Shown here in pieces: positions 20,210 through 22,749 of a stretch of 64,000 bases of DNA (the first letter of the stretch is position 1; each line of letters starts with the position of its first letter). A program made the position numbers and the translations under genes. This DNA is from Candidatus Nanoarchaeia archaeon (lineage in GTDB: Archaea > Nanobdellota > Nanobdellia > Woesearchaeales > JACPBV01), in assembly GCA_028279655.1 (NCBI GenBank), contig JANQNH010000018.1, positions 1-64,000 of the forward strand, read 5' to 3'. Below the pieces are notes generated by a model. That model was not told the DNA's origin, did no database searches, and saw nothing but the letters and a program-made list of their open reading frames with translations.

Positions 20210-20485
20210 TTAAACTACCTCTTCTTTTTTTGATTCTTCGATATCCTTTGAATCTTCAGAAGTCACTCTTTTTGACACAGAATAGGCTTTACCTGTAAAT
20301 TTTGTGTTGCACTTTCTGCATTCCCAAATCCCAACAGCTATCCTTTTTACCCTGTCAGCAGAACAATATGGGCATTTCTGTTTCTTTCTCTGTTCTTTTT
20401 CTATCTTTCCGAATCTCTCTTTAAGTCTCCTACCGTATCTTGCTCCAAATCTCTTAGTTGACTTGTATTTTCCTTTTTCTGCCAT
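20210..20485 (-). CDS. rpl37ae: 50S ribosomal protein L37Ae
   Basis: 91 residues. A basic N-terminus STKRFGARYGRRLKERF is followed by a zinc finger CPYC (~38-41) and CRKC (~56-59), and WECRKCNTKFTGKAY is characteristic. The C-terminus is extended by an acidic, Lys-rich tail. First gene of the rpl37ae-rpoP-pfdB-UPF0147 operon; tRNA-Pro lies just upstream. Confidence 0.95.
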   Translation of the reverse strand: MAEKGKYKSTKRFGARYGRRLKERFGKIEKEQRKKQKCPYCSADRVKRIAVGIWECRKCNTKFTGKAYSVSKRVTSEDSKDIEESKKEEVV

Positions 20486-20537: not shown

Positions 20538-20647
20538 TGGGGCTACCCGGATTTGAACCGGGGTCGTCTGGCCCCAAACCAGAAAGGATGAGTTTGCTCC
20601 TAATAAACTTTTTAGAAGGTTATTAGTCCAAGCTACCCCATAGCCCC
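20538..20647 (-). tRNA. tRNA-Pro (TGG) with a predicted 34-nt D-loop intron
   Basis: Acceptor GGGGCTA/TAGCCCC, discriminator A (20538), T-arm CCCGG-TTCAAAT-CCGGG and anticodon arm TCTGG-TTTGGGG-CCAGA, giving anticodon TGG. The D-loop carries ~34 extra nt. A bulge-helix-bulge fits: GCTT (exon) pairs with GAGC (intron), flanked by 3-nt bulges GG^A and AA^A, with a 7-bp intron stem CTAATAA/TTATTAG. Predicted 5' exon 20647-20628, intron 20627-20594, 3' exon 20593-20538; mature 76 nt. The D-stem does not directly abut the central helix, so it is a relaxed motif. CCA not encoded. The 5' exon overlaps the end of a LAGLIDADG gene. Confidence 0.9.
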
Positions 20648-21474
20648 GTGTTAATATGCCTTATTTTATCTATATGTTTCATATTGGAAAACCCAGCTCT
20701 TTTTAAATACTTTTCTATTTCGCTCCTCTTATACAAGCAAATGCTTGTTTTACCTGACTTAGCGAATTTTAACCCAAGGATATCTGCCATATGCTTAAAA
20801 CCTTCTAATATTCCTAATGAGGTATTTGTGAACTTAATGTACGTCTTTTTGTCTCTTTTATCCCAATAAACGCAGCCATCAGTATCCATTAACCCTTTCA
20901 TACACCTTGAAGTAAATTCATTATCCTTTAATATCCATTTTGGAACTTTTACGTTATTTTTTAATTTGTTTCCTCTTTTTAAACCATATTTAAGTAAGAT
21001 ATTAGTTAAGTTCTTACTGTCTTTATGTAATCTTGATTCATTAGAGTTCTTGCTTTCATGCTCGTTTAATCTAATCTTGAAAAGGTTATAGAATAACTCT
21101 TTGAGGTATTCTCTATAATCTCTTTCTCTTTTATCAATCATTATCCGGATGGAATTTTTATAGATGTTCCCATCACCCAACATGATTCCAATAAACTCAG
21201 CGAAATCTCCATTTATTCCATTAAATTTAACTTCAGCTGGTTTTATAGAATCTCCAAAGTTCTTCTCCTTATGGAATTTAATTTCCGATAAGTTCAATGT
21301 TTTAATATCAATTTTTAGTATATTGCATATTTCATTAAGTAAATCTTTACTTATTGAGATATTGTTATAAAGGACATTCTTTATAGGCCACTTTAGATTT
21401 TTGTCGCTTTCTATCAATGTTTTCTTATTATCTTTTACAATTGTTCTTAAATTCTTATTTATTTTATACCTCAT
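20623..21474 (-). CDS. LAGLIDADG homing endonuclease overlapping tRNA-Pro
   Basis: 283 residues with two LAGLIDADG-type motifs: AEFIGIMLGDG (92-102) and RCMKGLMDTDG (190-200), each ending in the catalytic acid. An N-terminal ~80-residue segment may be a DNA-recognition or helix-turn-helix extension. The last eight sense codons are the 5' exon of tRNA-Pro, and the TAA stop lies in the predicted tRNA intron. The gene is Lys/Asn-rich and AT-rich compared with neighbours, as expected of a mobile gene. It probably cleaves the intronless tRNA-Pro allele. No displaced second 5' exon is seen upstream (21475-21650). Confidence 0.88.
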   Translation of the reverse strand: MRYKINKNLRTIVKDNKKTLIESDKNLKWPIKNVLYNNISISKDLLNEICNILKIDIKTLNLSEIKFHKEKNFGDSIKPAEVKFNGINGDFAEFIGIMLGDGNIYKNSIRIMIDKRERDYREYLKELFYNLFKIRLNEHESKNSNESRLHKDSKNLTNILLKYGLKRGNKLKNNVKVPKWILKDNEFTSRCMKGLMDTDGCVYWDKRDKKTYIKFTNTSLGILEGFKHMADILGLKFAKSGKTSICLYKRSEIEKYLKRAGFSNMKHIDKIRHINTGLWGSLD

Positions 21475-21617
21475 TTAAGTCACCAACTTATCATTGGTCA
21501 AAACTTCGTAAATGATTTCTTTGAAATTATAATTTGGAATGTTGAGATTTCTTTTGAGTGATTTAGGGGGTATGTAAAATAGAATTTAAATGTTTGTATT
21601 TATGATTATATCCAAAA

Positions 21618-21627
21618 TTTTATAAAG
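21618..21627 (+). promoter_or_regulatory. TATA box of the aRF1 gene
   Basis: TTTTATAAAG is centred about 30 nt before the ATG at 21652, consistent with a leaderless mRNA. Confidence 0.5.
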
Positions 21628-21651
21628 AAACTTGCTCCTCTGGTATGTTAT

Positions 21652-22749
21652 ATGGCTTTAACTGAAAAACAGAAACATGAATTGAAGAAGTTTATCAAGG
21701 ATCTAAGTACTCATAGGGGTAGACATACAGAGCTTGTATCTGTCTATATACCTCAGGGTTATGATATGAACAAGATCATACAGCATCTATCTCAGGAAAG
21801 CGGGACTGCAACCAATATTAAGGATGCTACAACAAGGAAGAACGTGATCGATGCCCTGGAGAAGATGATACAGCACCTTAGGTTGTTTAAAAGAACACCC
21901 GATCATGGGTTGGCTGCATTCTCTGGTAATGTTGCTGCACAGCAGGGTAAGCAGGATTTTGAGGTATGGAGCATAGAACCACCTGTTCCTTTGAAGACTA
22001 GGATCTACAAGTGTGATAAGACCTTTATTCTTGACATATTAGAGGATATGATGGAGACCAAGGAGGTCTTTGGGCTGGTGGTCTTGGATCGAAGGGATGC
22101 TGATATAGCTTATCTGAAGGGAAAGACCATAATACCTCTTAGGAAGACACATTCTGAGGTGCCAGGAAAGATAAAAGCCGGAGGGCAGTCTGCTAAACGT
22201 TATGCTAAGAATACAGAGCTTGCTGCAAAAGCCCATTATAAGAAAGTAGCTGAATATGTTAAAGACCAGTTCTTTGAGAATAAGAACCTAAAGGGAATCA
22301 TAGTTGGCGGTCCAGGTCCTACAAAGTACCAGTTTGTTGATGGGGGCTTTATCACAACCGAGCTTAGGAATAAGATAATAGCAATAAAGGACCTTAGCTA
22401 TACTGGAGAGTTTGGTCTTCAGGAATTAGTGGATAAGTCTGATGATGTTTTGGCAAAAGAAAGTATAATGGATGAGAAGAAGATCATGGGTAAATTTTTT
22501 GATCTGTTGTCTAAGAAGCCAGGGATGGTAAGTTACAGTGAAAAAGAGGTTATGACTAATCTTAAGAACGGTGTTGTTGATGTCTTATTGTTATCTGAGG
22601 AATTGGAGGATAAGAAGATTGAGGAGTTTGAGGAGGAGGCTAAGGCCATGGGTTCTGAGGTAAAGATAGTTTCTACAGAGACCAGAGAGGGAGTCCAGCT
22701 TAGGGATATAGGGAAGGTTGCTGCAATACTTCGGTATGAGGTACAATAA
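21652..22749 (+). CDS. prf1: Peptide chain release factor aRF1, shortened, with NIKD motif
   Basis: 365 residues. It reads stop codons and triggers peptide release on the ribosome. The catalytic GGQ is at 177-179 (KAGGQSAKRY) and YxCxxxF at 119-125 (YKCDKTF). The codon-recognition motif reads TATNIKD (52-58) in place of TASNIKS. Archaeal aRF1 is normally ~410-425 residues; the missing ~50 lie in domain 3, where the zinc-binding minidomain (paired CxxC) is absent. Window genes end in TAA, TAG and TGA alike, so no reassignment is apparent. Pelota is excluded because Pelota lacks GGQ. Confidence 0.93.
   Translation: MALTEKQKHELKKFIKDLSTHRGRHTELVSVYIPQGYDMNKIIQHLSQESGTATNIKDATTRKNVIDALEKMIQHLRLFKRTPDHGLAAFSGNVAAQQGKQDFEVWSIEPPVPLKTRIYKCDKTFILDILEDMMETKEVFGLVVLDRRDADIAYLKGKTIIPLRKTHSEVPGKIKAGGQSAKRYAKNTELAAKAHYKKVAEYVKDQFFENKNLKGIIVGGPGPTKYQFVDGGFITTELRNKIIAIKDLSYTGEFGLQELVDKSDDVLAKESIMDEKKIMGKFFDLLSKKPGMVSYSEKEVMTNLKNGVVDVLLLSEELEDKKIEEFEEEAKAMGSEVKIVSTETREGVQLRDIGKVAAILRYEVQ

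Follow-up and report, generated by a model that had tools for sequence, protein, structure and literature searches.

A LAGLIDADG nuclease gene that ends within a tRNA-Pro gene, and its relatives at tRNA genes of archaea and bacteria

The window analysed here is the whole 64,000 nt stretch taken from contig JANQNH010000018.1 (positions 1 to 64,000) of a Candidatus Nanoarchaeia archaeon. An open reading frame (ORF) for a LAGLIDADG homing endonuclease overlaps a tRNA-Pro(UGG) gene in it, and comparison with about 170 related loci suggests that this nuclease is one of a hitherto undescribed group of archaeal and bacterial mobile genes, which enter tRNA genes together with a replacement tRNA half and thereby spare the host any damage. 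The locus is made up as follows.

20623–21474, minus strand: LAGLIDADG homing endonuclease ORF, 283 aa (PF14528, 6.8e-10; AlphaFold2, AF2; Foldseek), with its stop codon TAA (20625–20623) in the tRNA intron
21169–21198, minus strand: LAGLIDADG motif 1, EFIGIMLGDG, aa 93–102 (invariant E93, G96, G100, D101, G102)
20875–20901, minus strand: LAGLIDADG motif 2, MKGLMDTDG, aa 192–200 (invariant G194, D197, T198, G200)
20538–20647, minus strand: pre-tRNA-Pro(UGG) gene with a D-loop intron (Rfam RF00005 match), the sole TGG copy detected in the genome
20628–20647, minus strand: tRNA 5' exon, nt 1–20, doubling as the last nuclease codons; proposed replacement 5' half brought by the element
20594–20627, minus strand: D-loop intron, 34 nt, with a relaxed bulge-helix-bulge; orthologues lack it, and it is proposed to protect the tRNA gene from recutting
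20538–20593, minus strand: tRNA 3' exon, 56 nt

The nuclease ORF begins 827 nt before the tRNA, crosses the 20 nt 5' exon and stops at nt 3–5 of the 34 nt intron, its 3' codons being AAC ACG GGG CTA TGG GGT AGC TTG GAC TAA. Exon and intron supply the final seven residues of the protein (GLWGSLD), plus one base of the codon before. As the stop alone lies inside the intron, the gene is not intron-encoded in the sense of an ORF contained within an intron.

The tRNA was missed by ARAGORN with default settings and by cmscan run at the gathering threshold on the whole window; cmscan on a short stretch found it, with a 43.0 bits match to RF00005 that covers all 71 model positions, an insert in the D-loop and the anticodon TGG. 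Deletion of the 34 nt yields ...AGCTTGG|ACTCATCC..., and the resulting D-loop is letter-identical to that of the tRNA-Pro of genome G003 (locus L071), a member of the same family: GCTATGGGGTAGCTTGGACTCATCC. Putative cut sites at GG|A and AA|A match a 3 nt bulge (GGA), a 4 bp central helix (GCUU/GAGC) and a 7 bp inner helix (CUAAUAA/UUAUUAG). Imposing this motif costs 1.1 kcal/mol (−40.7 versus −41.8 for the free minimum), and it is called relaxed because its 3' side is an internal loop and not a clean bulge. The genome encodes one splicing endonuclease (PF01974, E 1e-27). A group I intron was rejected, since no Rfam group I match was found in the window or at 31 other loci and the intron measures 34 nt. 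The ORF, the RF00005 match and the removal of the intron thus bear out what the original prediction for this DNA had claimed: the overlap, its coordinates, the 34 nt intron and a nuclease lying outside it. Nor was either finding named beforehand as damaging, a broken ORF or another functional tRNA-Pro(TGG), encountered: the ORF is intact, and the genome, 90% complete, yielded no second tRNA-Pro(TGG).

Acidic residues are retained in both LAGLIDADG motifs, D101 and D197/D199 standing in invariant or nearly invariant columns of the homologue alignment. The LAGLIDADG fold was confidently modelled by AF2 (predicted local distance difference test, pLDDT, 92), and the best Foldseek matches were the TliVMA intein endonuclease, I-Tsp061I and I-DmoI (probability 1.00). 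In the model the fold is finished by about residue 276, where the last long helix stops, at the start of the tRNA; residues 280–283 have a pLDDT below 50, and the C-terminal tail varies among homologues. As the fold is complete before it, the tRNA-encoded tail is probably free of constraint as protein, and the stop codon looks like the first one available in frame. It had been proposed that one sequence is under protein, tRNA and splicing constraints at once; the sharing of the sequence holds, and a protein constraint on the exon is improbable.

The neighbouring genes allowed orthologous sites to be recognised.

21652–22749, plus strand: aRF1 gene, conserved divergent neighbour marking the orthologous site
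20210–20485, minus strand: gene of ribosomal protein L37ae, the conserved neighbour downstream

Across the archaeal order the arrangement aRF1 (divergent), tRNA-Pro, L37ae, rpoP is kept. At several empty sites (among them L064, L077, L063 and L069) aRF1 stands near an intronless tRNA-Pro, with L37ae on the other side and no nuclease gene between, and the same tRNA-Pro site is intronless in the homologues of G003, G030 and G044. Relatives lacking both intron and nuclease, which the original prediction had expected, thus exist at the aRF1/tRNA-Pro/L37ae site. Since both are absent from orthologous loci, nuclease gene and intron were both gained at the window locus.

Homologues of the nuclease were searched by protein similarity alone, in 193 relatives and a GTDB contig collection, and tRNAs were sought afterwards in the fetched loci; no homologue was found among 50,697 phage records. 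Counts were made on the 172 related nuclease ORFs that have a stop codon. The ORF end lay inside a tRNA of the same strand in 67 of them and at most 60 nt upstream of one in 21, and it lay inside an opposite-strand tRNA in nine and near one in eight. For 53 ORFs no tRNA was found within 400 nt by model, although by eye some 30 of these abut a tRNA or a tRNA half. In the tRNA-associated cases the 3' end of the nuclease gene points toward the tRNA or tRNA half. Among 42 control tRNAs a long same-strand ORF ended inside only one, and this was a second LAGLIDADG gene of the same genome as the window (L016, G000:C24:93856-93966), whose TAG is nt 8–10 of another tRNA. Comparison of 67/172 with 1/42 indicates that ending in a tRNA is more frequent than expected by chance.

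Stop codons clustered at nt 8 (n=19) and nt 13 (n=26) of the tRNA, being TAG or TGA of nt 8–10 or 13–15, and those in opposite-strand tRNAs at a distance of 17 nt from the 3' end of the tRNA (n=6); the clusters coincide with conserved tRNA letters. The TGA in the complement of the T-loop is the stop of nuclease genes convergent with the tRNA at L046, L181, L200, L206, L215 and L220, and by eye also at L180, L186, L193 and L223. At L090, L099 and L141 the nuclease ORF crosses a whole tRNA-Ser and stops about 40–60 nt beyond it. Archaeal members were found at Gln, Glu, Pro, Val, Gly, Met and other tRNAs, and bacterial members, from Patescibacteria, Omnitrophota and others, mostly at tRNA-Ser and some at tRNA-Tyr.

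A tree of 104 nuclease proteins was labelled by tRNA isotype. The label required 21 changes on it, versus 63.7 when shuffled, and none of 200 shuffles was as low. The 24 tRNA-Gln cases fall, all but one, in a single clade and all six Met cases in another. The Pro clade (window, L030 and L089, all on tRNA-Pro; Shimodaira-Hasegawa approximate likelihood ratio test, SH-aLRT, 98) includes host tRNAs of three kinds: that of the window has its intron in the D-loop, that of L030 has one in the T-loop and that of L089 has none, so that it is the tRNA, and not an intron, to which the nuclease gene is tied. Intron positions came from a home-made finder that miscalled the variable arms, long in tRNA-Ser, tRNA-Leu and tRNA-Tyr, as 'ACarm' introns and mis-sited some double introns; such rows were ignored. 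T-loop introns were also seen in tRNA-Val, tRNA-Ile and tRNA-Pro (L012 and L026 in the genome of the window, L071 in G003), and apparent introns near the acceptor stem or the nt 9/10 boundary in tRNA genes at L254, L266, L267, L258 and L079.

This variety within one clade bears on whether the D-loop intron is itself mobile, the adjacent free-standing nuclease cutting the intron insertion site and both travelling together. Such collaborative homing is known in phages (PMC10448857, PMC2988022), and it would fit a nuclease stop placed in the intron and the joint lack of gene and intron at orthologous sites. Introns also tend to lie on the gene's side of the tRNA (D-arm 21 versus T-arm 3 with upstream genes, 1 versus 6 with opposite-strand genes; Fisher p 7e-4), a test that is confounded by isotype clades. 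However, within the tRNA-Pro clade the intron is in the D-loop, in the T-loop or absent, many gene-bearing tRNAs have none, bacterial ones look intronless, and G141 carries the intron without the gene. We regard collaborative homing as an unlikely explanation.

Duplicated tRNA pieces were found beside the nuclease genes. A second copy of the host tRNA 5' half was present upstream of the nuclease gene in 13 of 85 same-strand loci (p<=0.005 each), as compared with 1/85 when crossed controls, with the 5' half of another isotype, were used. The clearest relics end near nt 20–22, in the D-loop, and at L035 the start codon follows the relic within 6 nt. The Pro-clade relative L030 has such a relic 5' half: GGGGCCGTAGTGTAGCTTGG. 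Opposite-strand loci gave the mirror image, with orphan 3' halves, the break being close to the T-loop, in five of 28 (for example L188). At L049, L054, L055, L056 and L170 the order is intact tRNA-Thr, nuclease gene, orphan tRNA 3' half; L055 and L056 have an additional orphan 5' half upstream, so that two orphan halves flank the intact tRNA-Thr and the gene. The plainest reading of the relic halves is insertion into a tRNA gene, with a replacement half supplied by the 3' end of the nuclease gene.

Alternatively, the upstream half could be functional, the nuclease gene lying within a very long tRNA intron and the half being spliced or trans-spliced to the 3' exon. Relics that are perfect over 22 nt (L033, L035, L104, L155) and the existence of split archaeal tRNAs (PMC3218864) speak for this. 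But nothing is missing from the adjacent 5' exon, which folds together with the intron, most loci, the window included, have no upstream half, and such a splicing endonuclease is not expected in the bacterial members. We consider this the least probable explanation and give it hardly any weight.

The D-arms of nuclease-bearing tRNA-Gln genes were altered as well. An ordinary, uninterrupted D-arm was found in one of 23 tRNA-Gln genes with a nuclease versus 60 of 84 without (p 3e-9), and, among intronless tRNA-Gln alone, in 1/8 versus 42/46 (p 1e-5). The changes in the other 22 of 23 comprise D-loop introns, recoded D-stems (L092, L113, L134, L151) and an extra base (L102, L110, L143); in the window, the intron splits the D-loop. 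These altered D-arms are what an enzyme reading the D-arm would be predicted to select. Three informative congeners separate the states, with neither intron nor gene in G031, the intron alone in G141, and intron plus gene in G104; the sites of G022 and G100 were uninformative.

A further alternative is a simple upstream insertion without any targeted relation to tRNA genes: a nuclease gene would have landed beside a tRNA, forfeited its original stop codon and come to read into the tRNA. The tail is unconserved and outside the fold, stops are the first available, and the window has no relic, all as this would predict. Yet tRNA adjacency is very frequent in independent lineages and is accompanied by isotype-specific clades, relic halves and altered D-arms, and no ordinary gene ended inside a tRNA among the 42 control tRNAs. 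Already disfavoured on these grounds, simple insertion seems quite improbable to us.

The explanation that we favour, and hold to be probable though well short of certain, is that the window contains a free-standing LAGLIDADG element that homes to tRNA genes and joins nuclease gene and tRNA 5' exon in one mobile unit. A modelled fold that is complete ahead of the tRNA-encoded tail also speaks for it. The overlap, the empty orthologous sites, the isotype-specific lineages, the relic halves in relatives and the altered D-arms of tRNA-Gln are read from the sequences themselves, and we infer from them cleavage, target site, repair route, immunity and splicing. The nuclease would recognise the D-arm in a single tRNA species, tRNA-Pro in this case (related lineages would use the T-loop), and cut an uninterrupted copy. 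The break would be repaired from the nuclease-bearing allele, with tRNA sequence serving as homology, and the nuclease gene, its 3' end extended by a full tRNA 5' half, would thereby enter the D-arm. The tRNA would thus be rebuilt at once, while the old 5' half stayed upstream as a relic. The rebuilt D-arm would resist recutting owing to a spliceable intron, as in the window, a recoded D-stem or an inserted base. As the element would bring no stop codon of its own, translation would run into the tRNA up to the first in-frame stop, at U8-A9-G10, at U13-A14-G15 or, in the window, in the intron. The original prediction is thus partly upheld in its interpretation; neither the widespread pattern nor its likely cause, an insertion that regenerates the tRNA 5' end, was part of it.

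Several points weigh against this tRNA-homing explanation. In the window the 3' end of the nuclease gene runs into an entire tRNA end, and the tRNA arm is altered, two features proposed for this tRNA-restoring group; the third, the relic half, is lacking: no duplicate 5' half was detectable upstream of the nuclease gene (p 0.80). Most other nuclease loci also lack one. The relic of the window may have been lost over time, and the locus would then have arisen in the same way as its relic-bearing relatives. The D-arm pattern of tRNA-Gln was defined after the sequences had been seen, on loci that are related and not independent, and the bacterial tRNA-Ser cases have no matched control set. L098, the lone nuclease-bearing tRNA-Gln with an ordinary, intact D-arm, is intronless, and its relic half differs from its rebuilt half. 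Finally, the intron of G141 stands without a gene.

Promoters were examined with a TATA matrix built from the 42 control tRNAs, in which the TATA box (median 9.5 bits) lies near −35. Nuclease-bearing archaeal tRNAs scored lower (median 4.25 versus 9.5 bits, p 1e-6). Some nuclease genes have a good TATA box about 30 nt before the start codon, and others have one inside the gene. Because the boxes of nuclease-bearing tRNAs are weak and those of nuclease genes good, gene and tRNA are likely co-transcribed at many loci. The tRNA-Pro of the window has no TATA box at the usual place; two elements nearby were noted.

20699–20708, minus strand: TATA-like ATTTAAAAAG (score 11.0 bits) in the nuclease ORF, 61 nt ahead of the tRNA; candidate internal promoter
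21475–21651, no strand assigned: upstream gap to aRF1, with a TATA-like CTTTATAAAA at 21627 (minus strand), 9.3 bits, 153 nt upstream of the nuclease gene

The original prediction had required the tRNA promoter to lie in the nuclease gene; the 11-bit box at −61 in the gene and the 9.3-bit box upstream of the gene are both candidates for the transcript of the window tRNA, and a match as strong as the 11-bit one recurs elsewhere in the same AT-rich nuclease ORF. Endonuclease genes of T4 may contain promoters of essential neighbour genes (PMC2988022). Each transcript could presumably serve as message or as tRNA, never as both, because a cut by RNase P would strip the stop codon from the mRNA.

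The gain of archaeal tRNA introns at odd positions is an old question, for which isotype-specific, tRNA-fused nucleases associated with altered D-arms offer a testable selective agent. We tentatively raise the possibility, itself doubtful, that many of the non-canonical tRNA introns and recoded D- or T-arms of DPANN-like archaea either shield against tRNA-invading homing endonucleases or are scars that these have left, and that homing attack drives intron gain. If so, the window would represent the complete state, in which one site has newly acquired the gene, the rebuilt 5' exon and a shielding intron. The family would also illustrate a selfish gene living inside an essential, nearly invariant RNA gene that supplies its stop codon, and annotation may overlook such tRNAs and set the nuclease gene ends wrongly. 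Full-text searches of papers other than subscription articles and preprints gave no account of cellular nuclease genes being fused to tRNA ends, and the novelty is provisional.

Parts of this arrangement have parallels in known systems. Some endonuclease genes of fungal mitochondria, as at atp6 of Allomyces, insert carrying a replacement end for the host gene and leave the old piece as a relic; there the host gene is mitochondrial and protein-coding, whereas the present family occupies tRNA genes of archaea and bacteria. Integrative elements that target tRNA genes bring along part of a tRNA, by which the tRNA is restored when they insert, but they use a tyrosine recombinase and usually the tRNA 3' half, in contrast to the homing nuclease and proposed repair at the window. 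I-DmoI and I-Tsp061I, intron-encoded archaeal LAGLIDADG enzymes, share the fold of the window protein, but their genes lie inside rRNA introns and that of the window outside the intron, on a tRNA gene. SegB, SegG and MobE of T4-like phages are, like the window nuclease, encoded by free-standing genes beside the target, and T4 SegB cleaves inside tRNA genes (PMC13096335). These T4 enzymes are GIY-YIG or HNH nucleases and, in the cited texts, are not described as having a piece of the target as their last codons, whereas the window nuclease is LAGLIDADG, cellular and fused to a tRNA end. Collaborative homing, in which a free-standing nuclease gene is paired with an intron (PMC10448857), occurs in T3/T7-like phages and at psbA of cyanophages and resembles the window in having the nuclease gene outside but next to an intron, possibly at the target site; its introns are group I, whereas the window intron is a short one of the bulge-helix-bulge type, dispensable across the family. 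Lastly, tRNA introns have transposed in Thermoproteales (Fujishima et al. 2010, as cited in PMC10714607), where non-canonical archaeal introns occupy new sites as they do here, although the citing text links no nuclease gene to them.
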